The translations under genes and the position numbers were made by a program. Positions 9,155 to 49,654 of a stretch of DNA of 64,000 nt are shown piece after piece (the first letter of the stretch is position 1; the number at the start of each line of letters is the position of its first letter). This DNA is from Apostichopus japonicus (Eukaryota > Echinodermata > Holothuroidea > Aspidochirotida > Stichopodidae). The stretch lies in assembly GCF_037975245.1 (NCBI RefSeq), contig NC_092577.1, forward strand, positions 23,400,398 to 23,464,397, in the 5' to 3' direction. Under the pieces are notes generated by a model. That model did not search any database, was not told the DNA's origin, and was given only the letters and a program-made list of their open reading frames with translations.

Positions 9155-9556
9155 GAAGTGTTATTTGAACACTCTAATATGCTGGGTGGTTAACACCTAA
9201 GTGTTATATTTAGGGGATAGGGGTTCGCAATTTCACCTGCAAGTGTCAATTGAACATCAGTAAGGTGTTGGCTATATTCAACACGCACAAAGTGTTAGAA
9301 TAGCCAGACATGTGGTGTTACTTCAGCACTCCCATAAACTCAGTAATAAACACCTTTGAAGTGCTAAATTTAGGGGACTGGGTGACAATGACACCTGCAA
9401 GTGTTGATAAATTTAACACCAGCGAGGTGTTACATTTTCAACACTCGGAAAGTGTAAACTTAGCAAGGAGGGTGTTGTCCCTGTACGAGCTAGGCTGAAG
9501 TGTTTGATATGACACTTATCGATTACATTTTAACACTCCATTTTTTGGAGTGTACG
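9155..9556. repeat. Cluster of AACACY...RGTGTT inverted motifs
   Basis: About a dozen small palindromes of the form AACAC(n4-8)GTGTT follow each other, for example TTAACACCTAAGTGTTA, TTCAACACGCACAAAGTGTT, TTAACACCAGCGAGGTGTTA and AACACTCCATTTTTTGGAGTGT's two arms. The spacing is irregular (about 25-45 bp). It ends just before the LINE. It may be a non-autonomous DNA element or a binding-site array. Confidence 0.6.
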
Positions 9557-9565
9557 TACTACAGA

Positions 9566-11377
9566 TACCCTGTCTCCCTCCCAAAGGTGAAATTTACTGG
9601 AAGAAAACATACAACGACATTTCTCTTCAGAAATTGTGGAAAAGTGTTTCTGGTGACATAAAAGATAATGACGATGCTGACTTACATTTAAAGATTTTGC
9701 ATAACATCTTATTTACAAAGGAAAAATTATATAAATTTAAACTGATTAATTCACCACTGTGTACCCTCTGTAGCAACGACATCGAAAGCATTGAACACCT
9801 GTTTATTAATTGCAGCAAGATTAAGAACTTCTGGGAGTTATTAATTCAGAAAGTAGATAATATCCTCCATCTAGATTCTTGGAAAGAATGCACCTTATTA
9901 GGCACCCCTCTTCATAAAAAGAACAAGCAGACTATGTTATTGGACTTTTTATTCAATATCCATGAAAAGGTTATTTGCTCCAGTAGAGCATGCCTTCTTA
10001 ACGAGGAAACATACGTGCACAACATATCAATCCCTATGTCACGAACGACTTTATTCATTGTACGTGTATTCAGTATATGCTGGTCAGGGTGATAAGTAGG
10101 TCACTCGTCGTGACTGACAACTTGTGCGTTTTTTCTGGAAGCTACGAGAAATGATGGCGCTATTCGGTATTAGCGAGTACAAATTTCCAGAACATACGGG
10201 AAGTTATTTTTAGCAGGTGACCGGATATCGTCGACCAATGAACGTTGAACTATCAGTCGTATCTTCGAGACATGGATGATTCTCGGTGTTTTTCCGTCAG
10301 GATTCCTGGAAAAGAACTTTCGGGAGATTAAACCCGGCTATATATAAGAAGAGATATTTTCGATGATGAGGAGTTCAGAGTTTTCCGATGTATTGTGAAA
10401 AGAAATTCATCTGAGATAAAAGATAAATCGAGGGGACGGACGGAGGAACCGGTGGACTGTTTGTTTATAAGATTGGTGCGTCGTTTAACCGGGACAGGCG
10501 TGACTTCGGCAGAGTTTTCGGAGTTCACCCAGGAGGAAGCCATCCTTGGGATACAAACGTTGAGTCGAATTGGACCAGCGGGGAACGGTTTTACTCCTGA
10601 CCAAGTCACGGGATACCAGCCTACGAGGGAGAATCCCGACATCGTTGTTGGTGACGCAAGGAGGTCAGAACAGCTACGAAAGGAACCGAGAGCCGGCACG
10701 CGCCGCGTAAGATAAGTTAAGTAATCTTTTAAAAATTTAACGGCCGTATAATATTGTAAAATCTGTCTGTAATATTCCAAATGTCTAGTACCAATAATCC
10801 TTGTACAAATCAGTAGAGATCGTATCATTGTAAATATATCGTTTTTGTTAACTTTCACAAACCTCTCAGTAGTCTTTTGGTCCTTTGAGTTTACTTCCCT
10901 GAATCTATGTAAAATTTTATTTTTATCGGCCTTGAAGGCCAAAGGGAAAAACCCGGGGTCGCAACAGAGGGGGCGCTAGAGGGTGCCATTTTGTATTATC
11001 CCACGGAAGTTGTGACACCCTATGATCTTCCACAACACTGTTCGAAAGAAAATTCGAACTTTATTTTATTTTAGGAAGAATATGGACCTCACCACATTCT
11101 GGCAACTCTTTGTCCAGGCCAATACACTTGTTATTTGAGAGTACGATTTTGATAATGCGTGTACATACAATTATATTATTGATAATTAGTATTTTAAATG
11201 AAGATTCTATCCTTCTTGTCATTGCTTGAGCCATAAAAGGCAAAGTAAAATTGCATAATTATTATTGCCTATTTCAATTTTAAGGAATCTGTATTCAAAT
11301 ACAATGTCTGTACATAATTTCCATGTGTTTTATTACGGTGAACCAGTGGGGCCATCGTTGAAATAAAGTGGAAAAAA
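9566..11377 (+). mobile_element. Tx1/L1-type LINE, 3' part, interrupted by a solo LTR
   Basis: The frame 9566-10031 encodes the end of a non-LTR reverse transcriptase ORF. It shows KLWKSVSGDIKD, then the zinc-binding signature LCTLCSNDIESIEHLFINC followed by KNFWELL, the C-terminal zf-RVT region of L1/Tx1-type ORF2. After the inserted LTR the frame resumes at 11023 (FHNTVRKKIRTLFYF, TTFWQLFVQANTLVI) and stops near 11140. A 3' UTR of about 220 bases ends in a short A run (11372-11377), directly followed by 5S rRNA sequence starting inside the gene. The 5' part (endonuclease, most of RT) is missing. The clade is inferred from the motif, not from a tree. Confidence 0.75.
10037..11017 (+). mobile_element. 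Solo LTR (Gypsy-type fossil) inside the LINE
   Basis: The ends are inverted repeats, TGTCAC at the left and GTGACA at the right, and the element is flanked on both sides by the 5-bp direct repeat CCCTA (10032-10036 and 11018-11022). There is a TATA box (TATATAAG) near 10340. No internal coding region is present, so this is what recombination between two LTRs leaves. The 5-bp target duplication suits Gypsy (or Copia). The clean duplication suggests a moderately recent insertion. The family is not identified. Confidence 0.8.
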
Positions 11378-11470
11378 CCGCTTCTCGTCCGATCACCGAC
11401 GTCAAGCAACGTATAGCGCAGTCAGTACTTGGATGGGTGAGCGCCTGGGAATGCTGGGTGCCGTAGGCTT
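11378..11470 (+). rRNA. 5S rRNA, 3' fragment (5'-truncated)
   Basis: From CTTCTCGTCCGATCACCGAC through GTACTTGGATGGGTGAGCG, CCTGGGAATGCTGGGTGCC to GTAGGC this is animal 5S rRNA from about nucleotide 29 to the end, followed by a TTTT terminator (11469-11472). The first ~28 nucleotides are replaced by the 3' end of the LINE. Internal promoter boxes are largely present. It is probably not a functional gene. Confidence 0.85.
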
Positions 11471-11545
11471 TTATTTTCATAATTGATAAAACTATGTTGC
11501 CCCGACGATGAGAAATGACAATAGCCTACATGTACCTCTTCTAAT

Positions 11546-11648
11546 GTCTACGGCCATATCGCGTTCACTATACCGGTTCTCGTCCGATCACCGACGTCAA
11601 GCAAGGTAGAGCGCAGTCAGTACTTGTATGGGAGACCACCTGGGGAAG
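11546..11648 (+). rRNA. 5S rRNA-like unit with intact 5' end and decayed 3' end
   Basis: Starts with GTCTACGGCCATATCGCG and continues TACCGGTTCTCGTCCGATCA, CAGTCAGTACTTGTATGGGA, ACCACCTGGGGA, then loses similarity before the last ~20 nucleotides. The CTCGTCC motif is 195 bp from that of the preceding unit, as expected of a small tandem 5S array. It is probably a pseudogene. Confidence 0.8.
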
Positions 11649-11649
11649 G

Positions 11650-12360
11650 CTCATGACCCCCGCAAGTACTAATCCCCTTTACCGATCACCGCGCAGGAAT
11701 GTGCGAATTTGCCAAAAAATTAGATTCGTAATAGCGCCATCATTCGGCGCAGCGATAAAATAGAGCCCCAACATCCTTTGTATTTCTGCAGTTTTATTAT
11801 AATCATGAGATTATTCTTCTCTCTAAAACTTGCTAAAAATATGTTTCAAGAACGTTGCATTTCCAAGATTGAAATTCAGCTAGTAGACAATCATATTAAA
11901 CCCTGGAGGTCATAAAGTAACCTTCAATCCTTTAGCCTTGCACACATAGGTGCCCGCTGCCTCCTTTGTTGATGTAGCCAGCATTTATGAAATTGCAATA
12001 ACATTCATGTGAGGATTTGACTTTTCACCACATTTATGAAATATATACAAAATCAGACCAACTTTAAATAATTAGCAGACAAGACAGACAGATTGAGGGA
12101 CAGAAAGAATGATATGCTTAGGTATAGTATTATAGTAGCTCTCTGACATAGCCAATAGAGCTAAACACGACTCAAGAACATGTTGCTGACTGTGCAAAGT
12201 GGAATTTATTGTACCTCTTGGCAAGCTCATAGTATGTACTACATTTACAATTTTTTATACTGTGACAATGGGCAAGTTTTTTCACTGCAGCCCAGGAACC
12301 ATAAATGGTTACATGTATGTTGTATGGTATACAACTATGTCAGGACATGAGGAAGAGCCC
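11650..12360. other. Intergenic, no gene recognised
   Basis: AT-rich; open frames are short and motif-free. Nothing identified. Confidence 0.45.
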
Positions 12361-15300
12361 ATTTTATTTGCCTTTTCTCCTCTGCAGTTCTTCGTCTACG
12401 ACTCTTTTAAAATGTGCAAAGTCATTGAAAACGCCTCCAAATCCCGGGGTTGTGGACTTTCTACTTCTTGGGCAAAATGTGAAAATTTTTGGGTTGCTGG
12501 CAGCACATTTTTCTTTCGAAGGTGTGTAGCGCTTTTTTAGCCCACCACACTGTGCTATCTTACACGCAGAACATGGCTTTCTTGATTTGTTTGGCATCAC
12601 TGGTTTTGGAGTATGGGATTGTGATGGTTTCGCTTTATATGTAAATGCTACTTGGCTGGTTGAAGGTTGTAGCAGCACAGATGGTGCCTGGGGTTATGAA
12701 GGTACAACCAATAGTATAGGAGCTATGAACCTGATGGCATAACCTGTGCAGAGGTTGGTCGAGGTTGCAGTTGTCGCAAAGTTGAAGCCGACGCGATTGC
12801 ACCAGTAGATGATGAAGCAACATGTTCGGTTTCCTCAACATGAAAATCCAATCTCCTTTTTTCATGTCGCCTCTTTCCAGTAATGAGGTCAACCGACGGG
12901 TACTGAACTTCAGGTGTGTCTAGAGGTGGAAGCGATGAAGGGAGGGAGGGGGCATCAGGCATAGTTTCGTCTGAGAAGACCCGTTTGTGTGGCCGTCAAG
13001 TTGCACTCTTGGCTTCCTTTGAAAGCATGTTTGTGACAGACTTGGCATTGATGTTGGGCAGAGGTATCTCAAGATTTGACAAAAGTGGATCACCCCTTAG
13101 CCTGTCCACAATTCTTTTGTAATGGCCTATCACCATGCTAGCCGTCTTCGTGGGTGAGGAGTAGTGACGGGCAGAAGGTCTGTTCTTTAACATTTTGATT
13201 AATATGTACAGGAGACGGGACTCTTCTGTTATTTGAGACGCCTGCGCGTACCTCATTTGCGCCAATTTTGTTTTCTGAGCAACACTGCTCTGTGGGTTTT
13301 CTGGACCTAGACATCTCCCAAACAAGGTGTACCCCCATTTAGACTGGTACCGATTTGTCATGTTCGTGAAGCGAACTAGCAGCTGTGTTGCAATCTTCCT
13401 CTCAGAGAAGGAGGCACAATGTGTCTGTTACTGTCATTAGCTAGCTGCAGTAGCAACAGGGCCAGTCGCTCTACTTCCTGAAACCCGGGGAGATGAAGAT
13501 GGCGGGGAGACATGCGCACATCCTGTAAAGCAGGACTCTCTTCCTCTTCAACTTGCCTTGATGCACTCAGCACAGAATGCTCTATACTGAATGAATCAAT
13601 AGGATCCCCTTGGTCTTCCTCAGAGGCCAGGTCTCAAACCCCTTCATCTTCACACTCTTCTAAGTCACTCTGCTGGTCCTGATGAGGCTCAAGAAGCTCC
13701 TGAGACACTTCTTCATCAACTGCAATATAAAATATATATATATACATCATCTTTTTATATGCAAGCACTAATCCGACTAAGCTTTAGCACACATCTCAAC
13801 AACGCCTGTTACAATCAATTGTCCTACTGAGCTGCCAATCCCCATGACAGTCCCTCTTCAATGAGAGAAATGCTTATTTTCCCACTTGTAACTTTACCTG
13901 CTGCCCTTAACGTTTACATGATTGTATACGGTCACCTCCTAGTTTGCCACATCCTCATGATATATTGAATTTACTGTACCTTTCTGAATGTAGTAGTCTC
14001 TGGATCTAAAATCTGTTGACTGGTAGTAGGCATACTCCACCCCCAGCAGCTCTTCAGGGCCTTCATCATGCCTCCAAGGATTGGGCATGGGTGCAGCGAA
14101 GTTTGCTTCAAAGAGGTGCTCCTTCCTAAATAGGACTTCCGACTGCTGGTTTAAACGCTGGATTTGGCGGGGATCCAGACATGTTGTCTTACGTCCTTGG
14201 CCACCAGCTACCTTCAGTGTCTCCATTCTTGTGATCCATTGAACTGCAAAGTTGATTAGGTACACCTGCAAATAACAAACTACTAATGAATTAAATGAAT
14301 AAATGAGTGTATAGGGTCATTCAAAGAAGTTGGGTACAAATAGGTGGTTTGACTGACTTTGAACATGCTGCTGAATTTCAAATAAAAAAGTAGGTGTAAT
14401 GAAAGCCATGAATTAAAGGCATTAATTTCATTTTTAAACTTACCACACAGTATGGGACTAGTTGATGTGATGGAGGTTCGCTAAAGGTTTGTCAAGTTAT
14501 GTCACAACAAGTGTTCCAGAACTTTATCTGATTTGGGAAACAAATTGTCAAGTATGTCACACATAATTTGAGCAATGCTACTGCATAAATTGCTTAATCT
14601 AACAATAGCTAGATTCACATGTCTGGCATTGACTGACAGTAATCTAGAATGCTACAAAGGTTTTTTCTTACCTGGAAAGGCATAATGCCACACCTCTGTG
14701 ATGGGACTGCATCCACCATGTGAGCATGTAGGCCCTCCAACGAGTTGCTTCCTCTCCGACACCTGTACTTGTTCAATTGGATGCCATTTAGAGTCACCAC
14801 TCTAGTAGTGACGTAGAGTGAAATGTTAGGTGGGTCCTGAAAATAAAAAGAATGAATTAATTAATTAATAAATGATTTCTTATTATTTGTGATATTTTAA
14901 TATTTTTTATTAGATTAGCTCAGTCAGTAGAACTGCCCCTCCCCTTCACCCTCTGGGAGGGAGGGGCATGTTGATCAAATCATAACAGATTGACCTCTGG
15001 CAACCTTTGGTCTCTCCTTTTGGTGCAACTTTCACCAACAACTGATGACTGTTTTGTACCTTTAAACAATGAGCTCACCTGCATACAACTAAGATGTTTA
15101 CTGGCCGTCGCCCATTGAGCATCAACTGCTTCTGTGGACTTGAACAAAGGTATGCCATCAATATCCAGGCCAGCTGGTCCCTTGAACTCCTGCAAAATGG
15201 CCTCTATGGCACATGCACTCTCCTGCAAAATAATAAATGTTGAAATAAAAAAAAGCCTTAAAGATAAAGATAATTCAGATCAAGACTCACTGGTCTAATT

Positions 15301-15765
15301 CTAATGACAATGTAAACAAATGTAAAGAAAAGAAAAGACTGCCACTTTAGATTCCTGATGTCATTTACGATGTCAGTATCAATTGCATATCAGGTGACAC
15401 TGCCCTCCTTCAGCTTTGTTTATCCATCCACAATAAAAGCAGCTTACCTCTACCCCTCGGGTTATGCGTCGAACATACGACTTCAGCTGGTGTGGCTTGA
15501 CAAAAGGCAGCATCTGTTCATCTGAGTAGTGGGAATAAATCTCATTGCCATTACGAATTGCCCGGACCAGCAGCAGCATGTCCTCTTTATTGTAGGCTAG
15601 GATGGCCCCGGCGAGTGCAGACATAAACATACCATACTTGGAGTGTGTTTGTTTAATCACTACTGTGTCCCATCGATGGAGCCAGTGTCTGATATCTAGG
15701 CGCACCACCATTCCCTCGTCTGTCCAGTCTTGAATAAGGATTCCAGCCACGAAGTCCCACCAACT

Positions 15766-16630
15766 CTAGAACAGAAAAAAAATGACAGACCATTCAGAAC
15801 ATTTCTTTATCCAGGGCAATTTAATTTCTGTACATATTTTAATTAACCAACATTTTATCTTATTCTAAAATGTCTTTGTGGACTGACATACAACCTGAAT
15901 AAAATATATCAGGACGATGTAGAATGCCATGAGTGTAATAACTGAATTTCCAGTCTGCGGGGACACTGTAGACTGGGTTGCATTAGGTTTTATGGTGGTT
16001 TGAGTTGTAATAAAATTTCGAAATGACAGGTTAAATTACAGAAATTATGAATCATTAACATCTGCCTGCATTATCAAGAAATTTACCGATTTCTGTCGGT
16101 CAATATTGTGAACTTATCGTGATCACAGATGTGTTCATCAGCGACACTACTGTACAATGCATGTACTTGAGATACGATACCCATGTTTGTTTATTGACAA
16201 AGCACATGCCTTGAAGATGTAATTTGTCACCTCTAATGACACCCCAAAATAGCTCCTGGTGAAACATACCCAAATGCAACAGCTGATATAGCAGCAGATG
16301 ATCCATCACCACACACCAATGCTACAGAGCACCTATTTCAGATACGATGACCAAGCATGTTGTACGGCACATGTGAAGACGGGAACATCTCTCCCCTTTA
16401 GTCACCACTTACGACAACCCCATGTAGCACGCAGTGTGACATCCAATGCAACAGCTGGTATGGCAGTAGCCAAACATGCCTAATGACACAATATGTGTGA
16501 ATGGGCGCATCACAGTCAGGAGTTTCATTCCACGAAGGTATTTTACCCACCTACATACAGCAGTTGTTGTCTGCGTAAAGAATCTTCGGGGCAGGAGCAT
16601 TAGCCCGCTTGAAACGTGCCACCAGTCCAC
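15766..16630 (-). other. Intron of the DUF6729-type gene
   Basis: Lies between the exons ending ...YADNNCC and starting SWWDFVAG. No further coding similarity, repeat or RNA was recognised. Confidence 0.4.
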
Positions 16631-16764
16631 TTGCCATTCTTTCGTAGCTTCCTTCTGATTGAGATGCAACCCACTACCGTCGTCAGGAACTGACCCCACT
16701 CATTCAGAACGCTTGTCACATACTGCATGGTACCCTGGCCATCACCGCGTATTTTCTTTAGGAT

Positions 16765-17570
16765 CTGTAAAAAATAACATTAAGAGAGTTAATATTTCAA
16801 GCAATGTGGGAGATGTTGAATGGGGAAGGGTGAGACCCCCCCCCCCAACTGCTAATGGAAATGCACCATCAACATCCTCCTGACATGAAGGAGAGAAGAG
16901 AAAAATTAAAAGCTAAAGGAAGAGAGATAACAGAGTTAAATCCAGTTTGTTGATATGTAATTTCTGAAGATCGTTTAAAGGGGAGGCAAGGAAAGTTGAA
17001 GGCCTGTTTGTTCCAGATTCATGCTGTGCGAGGAAACAATGAGTTAGCAGACGAGTGACAACTATAGCAATGAAGTGCAACAAAAAACACCTAAGCAGTT
17101 TAAAATTGACAACATAATCTGCCTTGGCAGGAAAAAGGCGATCAATGATTATATACGCTAAAAACTAAGATGTTGTAATTATTGCTTGCCTCTTTATAGG
17201 CGAGTTTCAGTCCAGCAAGGCCTTTTAATGCAATTCTTACATAAAACTGTTGCTTTCTTTATCTGTACCAGTGCCGGATTGGTGTCACTATTGCAAATTC
17301 GCACAAATTCAGTTATATGGTCAGACATCACAGAAAGCACTTGTGCAGCACACATGGATGGGACTAAGCAATAGCTACATTTAAGCATATAAACACTGAA
17401 TGGAGTTTTGTGGCTTAGTAGCTTATGCATATATGTGATAATTATACTCCATCGGTATGAACCGTTTACCTTGTCCACAAAAGAAGATAAGCAGAGCTGG
17501 AACCAACCCACTACCATAATGGAATTTTTGGTTGACAAACCGTTAAGCACATACGTTAAAAAGAAGTTAC
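16765..17570 (-). other. Intron of the DUF6729-type gene
   Basis: Bounded by a TTTTTTACAG acceptor at 16765 and a GTAAC donor at 17570. Contains a C-run near 16838. The open frame at 17194-17550 has no family resemblance. Confidence 0.45.
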
Positions 17571-17751
17571 CTGTTTAGTCCCATCAATGCACAGGATTTC
17601 TCCAGTGACACTGAGAATGGAGGCTCTGTAGTCCGGCATCCTCTCCATCTCCATGACCAAATGGGCCCGGCGCAGCACTCTGGCAGAGGGTACGGGAGAC
17701 TGAGGGAGTGGTGGAGTGTAGCTGCCTGGAGGTTTCAAATTGGACAAGATC

Positions 17752-19611
17752 CCTTGCTGAGAAAGCATACGCCCAACTTGAGAAGGAGATGTTGGCTGTG
17801 GTACATGGGTGCGAACGCTTTCATCAGTATGTATATGGCAAGCAAGTTCAAATAGAGTCAGATCATAAGCCATTAGAATCCATAGTGCGGAAACCACTTG
17901 CTTTAGTACCACCGAGACTACAAAGATTATTACTAAGATTACAGAAGTATGATGTAGTAATTAAGTATAGGCCAGGTAAAGAGCTCTTAATTGCTGATAC
18001 TTTGTCCATGGCACACCTAAATCAAACAGGTGATGACAAATTATGTGAAGAAACTGAGGCATTTGTGCATATGTTAACAGCAAATTTGCCTATGACAGAT
18101 CAAAAGTTGCTTGAGTTTCAAAATGCTGCAAAAGAAGATGTTTGTTTGCAAAATCTACTCAAACTAGTTCAAGGTGGGTGGCCTGAGAATAGGTCAGAAG
18201 TCATAGCTAATATAAGGATTTATTGGGAATATCAGGGAGAACTGCATAAGGGGTGAACGACTTATCGTTCCACAATCTCTGAGAAAAGAAATGCTCTAAA
18301 AAATCCATGAAGGGCATTTGGGGGTAATAAAATGGAAATGTAGGGCAAGGGAGATCTGTCAAACATACCAAAACTCTAACCAAAAGGAACCGCTAAGATC
18401 GCATGAAATTCCATTGCGGCCATGGCAAAAGGTTGGCATGGATTTGTTTCACTTTAATACCCAGAGTACTTCCTAATAGTTGACTATTTTTCCAGGTATG
18501 TGGAGGTTTGCATGCTAAAAAATAGTACAACTACTTCTTCAGTCATTGTGCATATTAAGTCAGTTTTTGCAAGACATGGAGTTCCGGACGAGGTCATGTC
18601 CGACAATGGTCCTCAATTCCATTGCAAGGAGTTTACTGAATTTGCGAAACAGTGGGGTTTCATGCATACCACATCTAGTCCACTCTTCCCACAGTCGAAC
18701 GGCTTGGCCGAAAGATCGATACAAACAGTCAAGAGGTTGCACAAGAAAGCTTTTGCCGAAGGGAGGGATCCTTACCATAGTCTTTTGATATTGCGTACAA
18801 CACCAGTACAGCCCAGCTCAGCTGTTAATGGGCAGGCGACTAAAAAGTAATTTGCCAATCACACATCAATTACTTAAGCCCAAGGTGATCCCTAAAGTAA
18901 GAGAGAAAATGCTGGAAAATCAAGCTAGTCAGAGAAAGTACTATCATCGAGGGACAAAGCCTTTGTCATATCTTTCTGTAGGAGACAGCATTAGATATCA
19001 AACGCAAAATGGCAGATGGGAACCTGATGTTGTCATTGAGAAAGCTATCACACCAAGGTCATATGTTATTCGTAACAAACATGGTAGTATCTTTAGGCGA
19101 AACAGGAGATTTCTACAGAAATCTAAAATTCCTTGCAGAGTGCAGGAGGACGTAGAGTTTGATTTTAAGCCAACAGATTTGCCAGGAATTAGGGAGACAG
19201 GTAACAATGCACACAATGGTCTGCATACCAGGAGTGGTAGAATTGTTAGGCATAGAAGAAGTTTAAACTGTTCAACTTATCGTTAAGACAGAATAGAAAC
19301 GAAAGAGTAAAGAAAGAGTAAATAGTAAAAACTTTTAGTTGCTTGAAAGTACAAGTTCATTTTTATTAAACTTGATATTAAATCATTAACATGTTTGTAT
19401 TGCATGACTTGAAGGGACATAAAATTTTAAGTTAAATGTCTGTTTTGTAATGGTAAGTAATTATGTCAAATCATCTTAAAGCGGAGGGGATGTCATGTAT
19501 TCAGAATACTTGTATGTAGTTGCTATTATGACATACCGCCCTCTATTCTGTTAATTGTATAAATGTGTTGAATAAACGAGTTGATCACAAGATGGCTACC
19601 TGACTACATCA
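17752..19611 (+). mobile_element. Gypsy (Ty3-like) LTR retrotransposon fossil, 3' half
   Basis: Parts in order: RNase H end (about 17752-18030, with EKEMLAVVHGCERFHQYVYG, ESDHKPLE and the RYRPGKE motif), integrase zinc/linker region (about 18050-18480), integrase core (about 18480-18850, with SDNGPQFH and HTTSSPLFPQSNGLAER), integrase C-terminal region (about 18860-19286), polypurine tract AAAGCGGAGGGGA (19478-19490), 3' LTR. Gag, protease and most of the RT are absent, and the left edge lies inside an exon of the DUF6729-type gene. It is broken, with roughly three to five breaks in the retained part; moderately old. Confidence 0.85.
19491..19611 (+). repeat. 3' LTR of the Gypsy fossil
   Basis: Begins TGTCATGT immediately after the polypurine tract and ends near ACTACA or ACATCA, about 120 bp; contains TATAAATG and AATAAA-like signals. 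No matching 5' LTR is in the window. Confidence 0.65.
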
Positions 19612-23943: not shown

Positions 23944-26900
23944 TCAAACAATATCCATATCCCACACACAACATTTCAAAATGCTTAATAACTCTGATCG
24001 AAACTGTGGGTAGTTATCGTAAGTGTGGGGAAGCTCAAGGACATTGCCACATGTATGAGCAATGGGTCTTCTTGCCAAGTCACTTTCAAATGTGGCAAAG
24101 CGAACAAAGAGTTTATCATATGACATTATGTCAGTGCCTGTGCAAAACCGTGAAAACTTTCTCAAGTCCTCAACACTTAGCTCACTAACAAATCGCTTCA
24201 AGTACTTTTTCACCTGCAGCTCAGATTCACTCACTACCTCAGGAAAGTTCAAAGCTTTGAAAACTCTCTTGTTGGTTATCTTGAGTGAAGTTAAAAGGTC
24301 CCCAATCCCTCCCACACCGTGGAACTCTTTCCTTAAGGGTCTACAAACCTCTCTCCAGCAATCAGATACAAATCTGGACTCTTGCAATAACTCTTTGTGG
24401 GCAATTTCTTTAAAAATTTCCAGAAAATTTGAAGCATTTCGGCTCCTACGGCAGTTATAGTTAGATAAAGTGTCAAGCAACTCATCATACTCAGAACCTG
24501 TTGGGAAATCATGCATTGCCTTAAGCAAAGTTTCCCGTTCAATATCTGGAATGTACTCTAAGAAATTTTGGGTAATATCAGAAAGGACTTCATCAAATAT
24601 AACTTGTTCCAAAAAACCGGTACTCAGCAAAACAGGAAAGTACCTGCAAGAGTACCACCCTTTGACCAACATTCTCCCAACTGCTCTCCACTTACTATCA
24701 CTCATATCATGCCTAAGATAAGGAATCTTGCTATTCACACCTGTTGTGTAACCACTGTAAAATTCTTCCCAGAATTCTGTTAGGGCATCTTTAATAACTC
24801 CAGTTCCAACAGCTTTTTCCTCTTCTGCATTGTTGTTGATAATCTTTAAATGTAAGAACTTTATCATTTCTGTCAGAATACTGCCTCTGTGTAGCCTTAT
24901 TGCTTTACTTTCCTCATAAGGAATTGTGTCATCAAGATCAACATAGTCCCTGCTTGCATGATGGTTTGAACCAAATGAAATAATCCCACTTGTAGACGGT
25001 GAGTTCTAACCAATAATTGCCACATCTGTAACAACTTCCACCTGTGATGCAACTGGTGGAATACTTTGCACTTCCACTTGCGATTCGCAATATAAGAAAG
25101 GATCAGGAAAAGGGAATTCTTCGCTTTCAAGATCCTCCTGAAAATGATTACTGTCATCTGTGATTGCAACCTTGTTCATGTCAGTCTCGTTTTCTTTGAC
25201 CTTAGATTTGGTGGCTAAGTAGAACCTCAGAACAGGTAATTTGGTTTCTTGGTACATCGTCCCAACAGACAGACCATCTTCCAGCACCTCTTGCCGAAAA
25301 TCTCGAATATGTAATGAAAAGTCTGAGATAGGCCCCATGACCGAAACACCGCCAGGAAAAAACAAATCCTGTGCAATAGGCAAGAGGTCCTGAACAGTGC
25401 TGTTTTTCTTAACACACAGACGCCTAGTACCTCCACCATCTTTAGCTCTCACAGATTTCCATTTACGCATGGTGTAATGTAACCATCCAATTTCAATCTT
25501 GCTAGCGTTTGCGTTACCTGTTAGCTTGTTCTGCCTATGACCGGGTCTTTCATCATCTGATTCTGCTCCAGAGATGTTCTTTTCAGGTGTACGTCTTAGC
25601 TTCTTCTGAAGACGCATTAATAGATCTGTTTTGCGTTTGTCTGCTGATTTGCCTAATGATTTACAGAAGTCCATGACAGCAAGGCGGTCTCCATATGATG
25701 GCAAATACTTTGTAAGGTTTTTGTCCGTCATCAGTTTTATGACTTCTGTATCAATCTGAAATTGAGAGTAAAGAAGTATTAGTTTATGAAGTGCAATATG
25801 ATATTTAAGATTAGCATTAAATTGCACTCTGAAATTACAACAATATTTTAAGGTGAATTCAGTACAATGCTGTTAATACTCACTGCTCACTTAAGCCTCC
25901 TCTGAAGCAAGGCACATAGTTTGGGTGGGAGCATTTTATTTCTAAACTGTGTTTTCTCACAGCTAAGCATGAGGTCTTCATTTGACTCTTCGTAAAATCC
26001 TACTACTGATACTTGATACAGCAAAAAGACAAACATGCTTGGTTTTCAACGCATGACTTGGTAAATGAAAGCTCTCATTGGACTGCTACTAGGCAGTGGA
26101 CTATGTGAGATAAGTTGTTGTAATAGGCTAATACTGTGGCAATGCTCTGTCCACTTTGAAGACCCATTTCATATTAACACGTTCTCCCCATTTGAAAAGT
26201 GCTTTACTTGAACTTACCCCCATGAAGGTACTTAAAGGTACACCAACGTTGCACAGCTTTTGAATCGTCATTGCAAACAAAAACAAAATACTTTTTGGTT
26301 GTTTAATTAAAGTATTATCAAACCAAGAAGGGGAGGTGGTATCAGAAGCAGGTCATACTACTTGTGAGAGTACAAATCTTCACCAAGATGTCATAGATTT
26401 TGTACACAGAATAGGATTAGACGCCCTCATACCAAGTATAAGAAGAGCCAACCCTATATTTCACACACCTAAATTTGGACCCTGTTGACTCCACAGAGAC
26501 AATTACCTATGCCAATACCAATTGGCATCTTGGTTTTTCAGAGTTTGACCTTATATCACCTTTGACCTCTGTCAAAAAACTGGGTCTCTTACATAATGAC
26601 AAAGAGGCACACAGCATATATACTACTGATCAAGTGTAAAAGTTTCAAAGTATACTGCGCATTTCCTTTCATGCTTACAGCACAGACAAGATATATAACA
26701 TTGATCGATTTTGTGATCATAATCTTGTAATGTTTCAGTCAATAGGTCTGACCAGATGTTGCAATGGAGATGAAACTTACCCTTACAAATCAAGTGCAAC
26801 ATAAAATTATGAACTATTTACAGTTACTTGTATAATTGTATAACACTAATATTAGCATTCGTATGTACTATGTATCATTTGATTCGTGCACATGTAAAAC

Positions 26901-29555: not shown

Positions 29556-32440
29556 TATTATTATTATTATTACACGAGACTTATATAGCGCCTTATTGAA
29601 TAAAAAAAATGGTGTAAAGCGCTTTACAACAAAAGATAAAAAATTGTTAAAAGTAAAAAAATTTAAAAAGGATATAAAAGTTAAGATTATATAGAAAAAT
29701 AGAAATGTTAAAACATAAATAGAAAAATAAATAGAAAAGTTATGACTAAAATACAATAATAACACCTAAATTAGGTATGTACAGCAAGTATAAAATAAGT
29801 ACATTAATCTGTGTTGGCAGCTCTAAAAAACAGTGTTTTAAGTAATTTCTTGAATTGCGTTAAGTCTATATTAATATTGCATATGTCCTGGGGTAAGTTA
29901 TTCCATAATGTGGCAGCAGTATAATCAAAACGTTTAAATTCATATGTTGATCGGGTAGAAGGCACGCTAAGTAAATTTTTATTCATTGAGCGTAAGGATC
30001 TAGGCGGAATATAAAGTATGGTCTCATTGGTGATGTAACTAGGGCTGAAGTGATTAACAGCCTTAAAGGTAAGTAAAAGAATTTAAAATTTTGATGTAAA
30101 ACGTACAGGTAACCAATGTAGTTCATACAGTACAGGAGATATATATATAGTTGCGACGAGGAGTTCTAGATATAAGGCGAGCTGCACAATTTTGTGTGCG
30201 TTGTAGTAGGCGGTTTGTTAGAGACTGTTAATTACCAAATAGTAAAGAATTGCAATAATCGAAGCGAGAGGTAACGAGGGATTGAACCAGTATTTTACAT
30301 GCATCAGTTGTAATGAAATCTCTTATTCTACCTATATTACGAATATGGAAATAGCAAGACTTGATAATATGATTAACTTCGGTCTCCATGGTAAGATGAG
30401 AGTCAAAGTAAACTCCTAAATTCCTAACAATAGATGCAGGATAAATGGTATTGGTCCCAACTGTAATGTGCGGAGTTACATCGTCTTTCAATTGGGTTTT
30501 AGGTGAAAAAATAAGAAGTTCCGTTTTAACATCATTTAACATAAGTTTGTTTCTCCTCAACCACATCCCAACATTGTTTACACATTCCTGCAACTTTTCT
30601 TGTATTTCTGACCATGGCATTTTGGGATCGAACTGTAAATAGAGTTGCGTATCATCGGCGTAGCAGTGGTAGTTGACTTGGTGACGCTTTATGATTTCAC
30701 ACAGTGGTTTGGTTAACATACAATAAATGAAGGGGCCAAGTACTGAGCCTTGTGGGACGCCACTGCTAAGTTGTACAGCTGTCGAGGAAGTCTGGCCAAT
30801 TTTGACCAGTTGCTTTCTTCCTGTCATATAAGATTTAAACCAGCTTAATGCATTTAGTGTAACCCCAAAAGTTTTTTCCAGACGTTGAAACAAAATTTGT
30901 TGGTCGATGACATCGAAAGCAGCGGACAAGTCAAGTAAGATAAGAGCCACATTAAACTTCGAATCAAGTGAAACTGCTATGTCGTTCTGCACCTTCAAAA
31001 GAGCGGACTCCGTTGAGTGGTGTTGCCTGTAGGCAGACTGGTAGGTACCGTGCAGTGCATTTACAGCTAGGTGGTGACTTAATCTGTTTGCAACGACTCT
31101 TTGAACTAGTTTCGACACAAATGGTAATTGCGAAACAGGTCGGTAATTTAAAAGAGAGTCTTTGTTCAGTCCAGTTTTTTTCAGGAGTGGAGTTACACAC
31201 GACTGTTTGAATGATGGCGGAACGAGAGACTCGGCTAAGGATTTATTAACAATGGCTGTAAAACATCAACACACCTCTTCAATATCCATGTTGGCAAAGG
31301 ATCCATGGAACACGATTTATTTGGTACACGAAGAATTAATTCCCGTATCTCAGTCTCATTGGTGGGTTCAAATTGTGAAAGGCATTCTCCATTAAAGGTA
31401 ACATCGGCTTCCATTATGTCCGTCCAACTGACATTATCGAAACGTTGGTGAATGGAAGCAACTTTATCTATGAAAAACTCATTGGATTGATTTGCGAGAT
31501 TCTCGGCCGAGGTGTGATCGGGCAAGGTTAAGCTACTATTTTCTCCCATAATGTGGCAATTGAAAGAGTTGCTTCATGTCGTTACATTCAGTAATCTTAG
31601 TTGAGTAATAGTTTTGTTTTTCTTTGACAAGTAATTTATTTACATCGCGGCACGATTGTTTGTAAATCAGTTTAAGTAAGTAAATAAGGATTTTCTCCAG
31701 ACTCTTTCAGCTTTACGGCGCTTATGCTTTGCATCTCTCAATCTATCAGAATACCAAGGTGCATTAGGGCGCAATGTGATATACTTCGTGATTATTGCTG
31801 CATGAATATCCATTAGGCGTGTCAACTGGCTATTGTAAATGTCAACCAAATCACATAATGAACGATTCGTAACCATCAGCTCGGGCATTATTCCTTATGT
31901 CATCCACTAAGTCTGAAATTTGTATAGAGCGATACCTTAGGTACGTTATACATTTACGTGGATGTTTTGGTTTACACATATCAAGGTTGAAATGCACAGC
32001 ATAATGGTCGCAGGTTAAGTTTCCATTGACATCACCAAGATTAGGATCGGTGATTATCGGAGATCCAGAAAGAAAACCACTCGATGCGGACTCGTTGGTT
32101 ATAACAGTGTCTAGTGTGTGGCCCGCACGTTGGGTGGGTCCAGTAACGTTTTGCAAAAAACTGTAAGCATTAAGCAAATTGCAGAACTGCTTGGTACTAA
32201 GATCATTTGCTTTATCGAGATGAAAATTAACATCGCCAACAATAACAACCTTGTCAATGGACGAGGCAAGACTCTCCAAAAATTGCGACCATTCATCAAA
32301 AAATACTGTAGTTTTGAGTCCGTTTTTGGTAGAATACTTTATGCTGTGGACGCAGGCTCGCAGTAACTGTGCTTGTTGTACATGAACCGTATGCCTGAAA
32401 CACGAGTACATATCAGCTATCTGGGCCCAATGGGTACCGT
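29556..32440 (-). mobile_element. L2/CR1-type LINE, 5'-truncated
   Basis: Minus-strand coding pieces: apurinic endonuclease C-terminal half (about 32411-31860: VVIVGDVNFHLDKANDL, TLDTVITNE, TCDHYAVHF), linker (31888-31667), pre-RT (31549-31235: SCSMDPLPTWILKRC), reverse transcriptase (31118-30228: [55 protein letters not shown]). The 3' end is TTACACCATTTTTT, then GGCGCTATATAAGTC and a TAA/TTA trinucleotide tail (29556-29573), typical of L2. Several frameshifts and stops separate the pieces (near 31600, 31200 and 30228). It was inserted about 30 bases upstream of the start codon of the HECT gene. Confidence 0.9.
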
Positions 32441-48300: not shown

Positions 48301-49654
48301 ATGAATGAAATCATTGATTGACAATCCTTATCTTTATACACGGCATTGCAGGGAATACAACTTAAAGATACAAGCAGAACATAGCCCTCTGACCGTGGGG
48401 GCTTTGGATGATCTTATTCGTACGACCATTACCTCAAACCAGAGGTTAGGTCCAAATGCTGTTCGGGCTCGCCTTTTTGCACAAGGACATCGTGTTCAAC
48501 GATGGAGAGTAAGAGAGAGCATGCTTCGTGTGGACCCTGGGGGTGCAGCACTGAGGGCAGCTCCTGCAATGCAAAGAAGAACCTACACTGTGGCTGGGCC
48601 AAATTCTATTTGGCACATTGATGGTAACCACAAACTTATCAGGTAATTCAACAATAAATACTTGAGTAAACCACATTTCAGAACAGATGTCATTTTTGGT
48701 TACTTTAATTGTGGTTTCCTTTGGATCAAGAAAGATTACATATAACCAATATTTCCATTGTTATATTAAGCCAAACTTCAGGTATGTTATTTAATTTTAT
48801 AACAACATTTGCATAAATTTTGGAATGTGAAGCATAATGGATAAGATTTTAGGATTTTTTTTTACAATTTTCTTGCTTTTGCATGTAGATGGAAGATGGT
48901 TATCCATGGTGGCATTGATGGCTTCAGTAGAATGATGGTGTTTCTACATGCCTCAGCCAACGATCGAAAAGAGGCTGTCTTGGAGCACTTTCTGGCTGCA
49001 ACCACTCTTTATGGGGTTCCATCACGAATTCGAGTTGATCATGGTGGAGAAAACAATGATATTTGTGACATCATGGAACTCATAAGGGTCCCAGGTCGAG
49101 GCTCAGCCATCCGTGGACGGAGTGTTCACAATCAAAGAATTGAGCGAAGTTGGGTGGATCTTTGGAATGGGGCTACTAATCTATATTATGACCTATTTCA
49201 TTTCATGGAGCAAAGAGGCTCGCTTGATAGTGACAACATTGCACAGCTCTGGGCATTGCACTATGTGTTTTTGCCAAGATTTAATAAGGAGCTGCAACTT
49301 TTCAGAGACCAGTGGAATAACCATGGCCTTAGGACAGCTCATCATGAAACATCTTTGCAGCTCTTCGTCGGTGGTACACTCGACCTCAGCAATGCCAGGC
49401 TTACAGCAATGCAGGACATGTTTGCAAGTTCTGTAGATAATGGTGCTGCAGCTCAGAGTGTATTTGAGAATCAAGGATGGGATGGTGATTATGTTATTCA
49501 AGTGCCAGAAATACCTTGTCCTCTTGATCAAGAGGCATTATCTCAATTGCAGCAGACAGTAGACCCTCTAGCTGAATCTGATGAACTTGGTATTGACATA
49601 TATTTAACGGTCATGGATTTCATTTCTGAATATTCTCTGAATGATCAACCATGA
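45375..49654 (+). CDS. Integrase-core (DDE) domain protein, five exons
   Basis: Exons: 45375-45532, 46791-46922, 47483-47645, 48352-48642, 48889-49654; every junction keeps phase with GT-AG sites. Belongs to a multi-copy family of fish and invertebrates with a retroviral-integrase-like (rve) fold. Order: N-terminal helix region, helix-turn-helix-like segment in exon 3 (PRVSELLGVSVRTVKRRMR), conserved HRVQRWRVRESMLRVDPGG, then the catalytic core with the three expected acids: Asp in WHIDGNHKLIR, Asp in RVDHGGEN, Glu in VHNQRIERSW. The acidic C-terminus resembles that of relatives. Biochemical role is inferred to be DNA strand transfer; no substrate is known. It looks nearly whole, with about one reading-frame break in exon 2, or else it uses a later start in that exon. 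Confidence 0.75.
46233..46545. mobile_element. MITE-like element in intron 1 of the integrase-core gene
   Basis: The left end GGACGTAGGAACCGGGGGGC mirrors the right end TTCCTACGCCACTG (inverted GTAGGAA). The inside repeats GCACCAAATTGCAT twice and begins with a G/C hairpin (GGGGGGGCGCCAGCCCCCC). No coding capacity. Confidence 0.5.

Follow-up and report, generated by a model that had tools for sequence, protein, structure and literature searches.

We have found that a stretch of 64,000 nucleotides from the genome of Apostichopus japonicus (C17:23400398-23464397, called the window here) holds a dead copy of a LINE that inserts at one exact nucleotide of the 5S rRNA gene, and that relatives of this element with long open reading frames persist elsewhere in the genome (671.6 Mb in 35 contigs were searched). 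The copy, at window positions 9553-11377, is very probably a 5'-truncated L1/Tx1-type LINE that was inserted into a 5S gene by TPRT. Positions within 5S are counted from GTCTACGG throughout.

The ORF2 C-terminal end of the element occupies 9553-10036 on the + strand, its start being approximate, and is delimited by an open frame, a zf-RVT domain and an alignment with a related copy on contig C6. The open frame, at 9562-10036, carries zf-RVT (PF13966, E 3.5e-9 in Pfam) as the sole domain of this copy, so that the C-terminal zinc-binding end of an L1/Tx1-type ORF recognised by the first-pass annotation is confirmed. The short 3' UTR described in the same annotation holds for ~11018-11371 (+), where similarity to the C6 copy continues to ~11148 and the end aligns with those of three LINEs of the 5S array (I1-I3, see below). 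It does not hold for 10037-11017, which is a solo LTR of 981 bp (no strand assigned) with TGTCAC...GTGACA ends and a 5-bp TSD, CCCTA, at 10032-10036 and 11018-11022; the C6 copy is continuous at this place and lacks the LTR, and a reading of these positions as LINE 3' UTR is thereby ruled out.

Close to the end of the element, GGTGAACCAGTGGGGCCATC at 11337-11356 (+) is a decayed copy of a 3' hairpin common to the group, GGTGAACC-AGTG-GGGCCATC, with a weak fold of its own (z -0.57). The A run at the join (11372-11377, +) is present as first reported and is followed by 5S sequence reaching its natural 3' end (11378-11469, +; identified by Rfam, by the sequence and by alignment with the array); this 5S begins at nt 28 rather than at about nt 29 as had been proposed, A27 being ambiguous with the A run. 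The further 5S unit with an intact 5' end, 195 bp on, was also correctly noticed; it lies at 11546-11644 (+) and its 3' end is replaced, the similarity to the 5S unit stopping at 11644. Rfam gives the two units as 11351-11469 (56.8 bits) and 11546-11668 (54.8 bits), and in aligning the first it counts some of the LINE as the beginning of the 5S model. Alignment with the empty site shows that the true 5S starts at 11377/11378.

This empty site lies in the 5S tandem array of the same contig, which has a 195-bp unit and extends over 23.02-23.29 Mb among the matches listed; further 5S matches fall near 17.4, 22.6-23.0, 23.36 and 23.59 Mb. Window positions 11377-17762 (no strand assigned) are paralogous, at 92-97% in three blocks, to C17:23138897-23145469 and to its duplicate, both inside the array. 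In these paralogs the first 5S is whole and the similarity to the window starts at 11377; the array paralog is the empty site of the window insertion. A 5S half upstream of the LINE was found neither in the window nor in the 10 kb before it, so the 5' junction has been lost or rearranged, and truncation or rearrangement has to be assumed. The target duplication is not visible in this copy. The array also contains an 11-kb segment of non-5S sequence, present as 99.9% identical duplicates at C17:23134193-23145177 and 23151885-23162867, part of which follows the second 5S of the window and replaces its 3' end.

A genome-wide search for A's followed by 5S from nt 30 onward gave 54 matches at 22 places, and the reversed pattern, used as a control, gave none, which excludes chance. 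Nineteen of the 22 joins were read (16 fetched loci and I1-I3), and each of the 19 proved to be a LINE 3' end carrying the hairpin, as such or in altered form. Of the remaining three, two have the 3' end of family A, and the third lies at the distance expected from a family B RT. Elsewhere in the genome, then, LINE copies join 5S at the identical nucleotide. This is the check that the first-pass annotation had proposed, and its reading as a 5S-targeted LINE is supported by the result.

The 3' end of family A has 15 exact matches in 671 Mb (control 0), and all 15 join 5S. Fourteen coincide with join-pattern sites and the fifteenth joins 5S with one changed base. By this count, which is of exact matches and misses diverged copies, family A is dedicated to 5S. 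Family B appears to be so too. When 130 of 3788 candidates from an RT search were scored, 17 matched the family B RT at 65% or above, and for 15 of these a 5S join lies as far away as expected. A match at C8:38020201, 97% identical to B in the RT, is close to a join but has none of its own, and one of the 17, C16:35747834, is nearer to family C (70%). Many further RT matches, at 55-62% to B, lie mostly on other contigs.

In 200 kb of the array that were read, 5S was matched 658 times by BLAST, and five long stretches interrupt the repeats. Three of these, I1, I2 and I3, are LINEs, each from a different family (the inserts measure 5338, 5591 and 5341 bp), and each of them starts inside 5S and ends in A's followed by 5S from nt 28 (with one C fewer in I1); the other two are the 11-kb segment and its duplicate. 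A short gap in the array holds a fourth LINE, a 5'-truncated copy of ~425 bp (G6), present twice through the same duplication. Judged by their 3' UTRs, the group comprises at least six families.

The 5' ends agree with the 3' joins. Eight of 12 fetched predicted 5' ends have the element beginning directly after CCGGTTCTCGT, as do I1 and I3; in the other four the expected junction was not in the fetched stretch. Given the 3' join at C28, the duplication is of 11 bp, 5S nt 28-38, with one base ambiguous in family A. A duplication of this kind and a poly(A) 3' end are what TPRT leaves behind. In one of the eight, L058, the element starts after an extra 5S repeat of ~19 bp. I2 begins after CCGGTTCTCGTCCG with a 14-bp duplication, and the truncated G6 copy after CCGGTTCTC with one of 9 bp. 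With duplications of 9, 11 and 14 bp, the position of the first-strand nick looks constant and that of the second-strand cut variable. One of L055 and L056 seems to be a duplicate of the other, and independent events accordingly number fewer than the loci counted.

We have weighed two explanations that dispense with repeated, site-specific insertion. The window copy is truncated, split by an LTR and flanked on its 5' side by sequence other than 5S, and it lies ~120 kb beyond the last array match among the matches listed; all this would suit an ordinary non-specific L1-like LINE brought up against a stray 5S by rearrangement of a degenerate region. Such an origin is extremely unlikely in the face of several families that join 5S at one nucleotide in 22 places, the presence of every counted family A end in 5S, duplications of ~11 bp and an empty-site paralog. 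The joins might also go back to a single old composite of LINE and 5S that unequal crossing-over multiplied in the array. Several do look like segmental duplicates (17.42/17.43 Mb, the tandem on C8, and 23.146/23.164 Mb, the last pair being duplicates), so that independent insertions are fewer than joins. On C8, between 38024489 and 38049346, five LINE/5S joins are spaced ~6.2 kb apart with families A, B, A, B, A alternating, and this stretch probably arose by tandem amplification, as a block, of a composite made up of two 5S-specific LINEs. As an account of all the joins, spreading of a single composite is nevertheless very unlikely: the site carries at least six 3' UTR types, the 5' extents vary (full length, ~425 bp, and truncated in the window), the duplications differ in length, and the joins occur on three contigs in two types of 5S, AACGTAGAGCGCAGTC on C17 and AGCGTCGAGCCTAGTC on C8 and C22, families A and B each being found in both.

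For insertion by TPRT, the APE-type endonuclease would nick the bottom strand of 5S between nt 27 and nt 28, and the freed 5S end would serve as primer for copying the LINE RNA into DNA, starting at the poly(A) end. Cleavage of the second strand around nt 38 would then produce the short duplication seen in the full-length relatives and lost in the window copy. The copy lies in a 5S-array-related fragment and was itself split later by the LTR element. Directly seen are the junctions, the duplications, the empty site, the domains, the common hairpin and the near-identical copies in two targets (described below); the steps of TPRT are inferred.

The 3' hairpin common to the group shows covariation. 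Fourteen distinct hairpins align without gaps and 92.0% of their cells are paired. Double-change cells number 8, compared with 2.6 in shuffled alignments, none of 500 of which reaches 8, and pairing is far poorer when the partners are slid. Counted by pairs, a double change occurs in 3, a value reached by 82 of 500 shuffles. When the window and the 200 kb of array were searched with an expression for the hairpin, six matches were obtained, all of them at a 5S join; two of the six are duplicates. The hairpin is probably a template signal for the RT.

The architecture of the group is best seen in I3 (family B), where the ORF1 frame is 369 aa long and the ORF2 frame 1334 aa; in I1 and I2 the frames are broken. 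Pfam identifies Exo_endo_phos (3.5e-15), RVT_1 (1.4e-32) and zf-RVT (6.2e-6; borderline, at 27.2 bits against a cut-off of 27.5) in ORF2. ORF1 has three CCHC-like motifs by eye, for which Pfam zf-CCHC gives an E of 0.0049, below the cut-off; CCHC zinc knuckles in ORF1 are typical of the Tx1 clade. Among solved structures human LINE-1 ORF2p is the best match to I3 (RT E 7.7e-59, endonuclease E 4.9e-15) and the R2 RT a far weaker one (E 1.7e-18), yet the RT identity to the human protein is only 32-36%, and human L1 is not known to be site-specific in such a way. I3 thus has the features of the L1/Tx1 superfamily, an APE-type endonuclease, an RT closest to that of L1, a C-terminal zf-RVT and two ORFs. 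The 1334-aa frame is kept at four family B places and a 1303-aa frame at five family A places, and a B copy on C8 is 99.5% identical over 1311 bp to I3 on C17, the two lying in different 5S types. Recent activity of the group is likely.

Of particular interest is the finding that some families of the group are also found outside 5S. Among 13 fetched 3' ends of the more distant RT matches, ten (L072-L081) have the hairpin, then poly(A), then a tandem repeat, which is T1 (165 bp) in seven and T2 (156 bp) in three. A family C element in T2, at C11:70159, is 97% identical in its RT to I2, and 94-96% identical in its 3' UTR to I2 and L046, both of which lie in 5S. Similarly, L081, which lies in T1, and the truncated G6 copy in 5S share 95.7% identity over 233 bp. 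Families C and G6 thus have copies both in 5S and in T1 or T2, and the 5S nucleotide is the same throughout. A looser case is family E, in which L054, found in 5S, shares 85% identity over 285 bp with two T1 copies, L072 and L076. Counting copies of C, E and G with the pattern CAATAAAAGAGAAAA was given up as unspecific, since it gave 64 matches and, when reversed as a control, still 23; the flanks were read for 12 of the 64, four of them being in 5S and eight in T1 or T2. T1 and T2 have motifs resembling Pol III boxes by eye. As tRNA genes they were rejected, Rfam and ARAGORN finding no tRNA in them, and one T2 variant folds strongly (z -3.74), unlike another T2 variant and the sequence of T1; the description as Pol III box-like is accordingly by eye only.

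I2 itself carries a trace of the second target. Just before the 5' part of this LINE, which lies in 5S, are 27 nt of T2 (29/30 positions), preceded by a second partial copy, and L085, resident in T2, is arranged alike with a few bases different at the seam. A search of the fetched loci with T2 matched only T2 loci and this spot in I2 (E 9.5e-8). Since T2 sequence is present in I2, the RNA from which I2 was made was most likely a read-through transcript begun at a T2 site. An RT tree of five taxa, rooted with human L1, groups family C with G1, a family of T1 (support 0.995), and leaves A and B outside, which fits 5S as the older target, if weakly because the root is distant.

These observations could be accommodated by a 5S-specific ancestor, some of whose descendants moved to T1 and T2 yet still nick 5S at nt 27/28 and return to it, with I2 directly recording a move out of T2 into 5S by way of a read-through RNA. 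The 5S specificity of these sister families would then be relaxed or ancestral. We regard this history as evenly balanced between true and false; if true, dedicated, dual-target and switched families would exist side by side in one genome. It is also possible, though we hold this only tentatively, that families C, E and G6 have not switched, and that their 5S copies were mobilised in trans by the 5S-dedicated machinery of A and B. The hairpin that is probably recognised by the RT is common to all families, few copies of C, E and G6 are seen in 5S, and ORF2 of I2 is broken, all of which would favour trans mobilisation; against it, family C has an ORF2 frame of its own, open over 1308 aa, in the T2 element whose RT so closely resembles that of I2. 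On either account, the occupation of the same 5S site by families with different home repeats makes target change in site-specific LINEs testable by comparison of their endonucleases.

Mutsu, a member of the Tx1 clade, is reportedly the 5S-targeting zebrafish LINE of Kojima and Fujiwara in 2004. In the passages available from PMC11202950, with a mention in PMC3706591, it is 5S-specific, about 5.5 kb long and has two ORFs, and the elements described here share this target, have inserts of about this length (~5.5 kb) and likewise have two ORFs. They differ in that relatives of theirs are also found in two further tandem repeats, and in that A and B are each found in both 5S types. Compared with Mutsu as described in those passages, the sharing and switching of targets among sister families would be unusual. 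The present group appears Mutsu-like in action, and its putative Tx1/Mutsu relationship is based on architecture and target. In searches of the openly accessible literature, Mutsu occurs together with 5S or rRNA in the same two papers and in one on Carassius fish (PMC8602411), and no 5S-specific L1/Tx1-type LINE outside fish was found in the papers that were read.

Other elements resemble the group in part. A Jockey-like non-LTR element of Tribolium freemani, described in part of PMC11202950 as regularly interrupting 5S rDNA, is associated with satellite DNA and is not L1-like. The Dada-5S elements of fish, according to the section seen of PMC8869645, also target 5S rRNA genes but are DNA transposons with an unrelated mechanism. 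Keno, in the relevant part of PMC4640811, is a LINE with an APE-type endonuclease and a small-RNA-gene target, as here, the target being U2 snRNA genes instead of 5S. A cluster of L1/Tx1-like LINEs with long open frames, 41-44% identical to I3 in the RT, lies beside U2 at C16:31017384-31165332 (L082-L084), and these are probably Keno-like families targeting U2: L084 matches U2 snRNA in Rfam at 43 bits, against a gathering score of 46, L083 has the U2 5' end by eye, and L082 has only the flank shared by L083 and L084. The combination of an exact site, a target duplication and a 3' hairpin in recently mobile families may also offer tools for targeted insertion into a multicopy locus.

The family of the window copy itself (F) has one preserved 3' end only, and its 5S specificity is supported by one junction, by the empty-site paralog and by membership of the group. 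The closest relative found is the single copy on C6, 79% identical in DNA over 485 columns. Past window position ~11148, that is over the last ~220 bp of the 3' UTR, the C6 copy shows no similarity, so its own target is unreadable and it neither supports nor refutes a 5S target; as evidence on this point it was set aside. Beside it is a tandem repeat (L037, C6 around 1.099 Mb) whose units look tRNA-like, of His type, by eye. Elsewhere in the window, 17657-18850 (+), 30231-31265 (-), 48845-49651 (+) and 23947-25005 (-) carry other domains, comprising a Gypsy-like RT_RNaseH and rve, an RVT_1 frame of another LINE, an integrase-core gene (rva_4) and a HECT domain.
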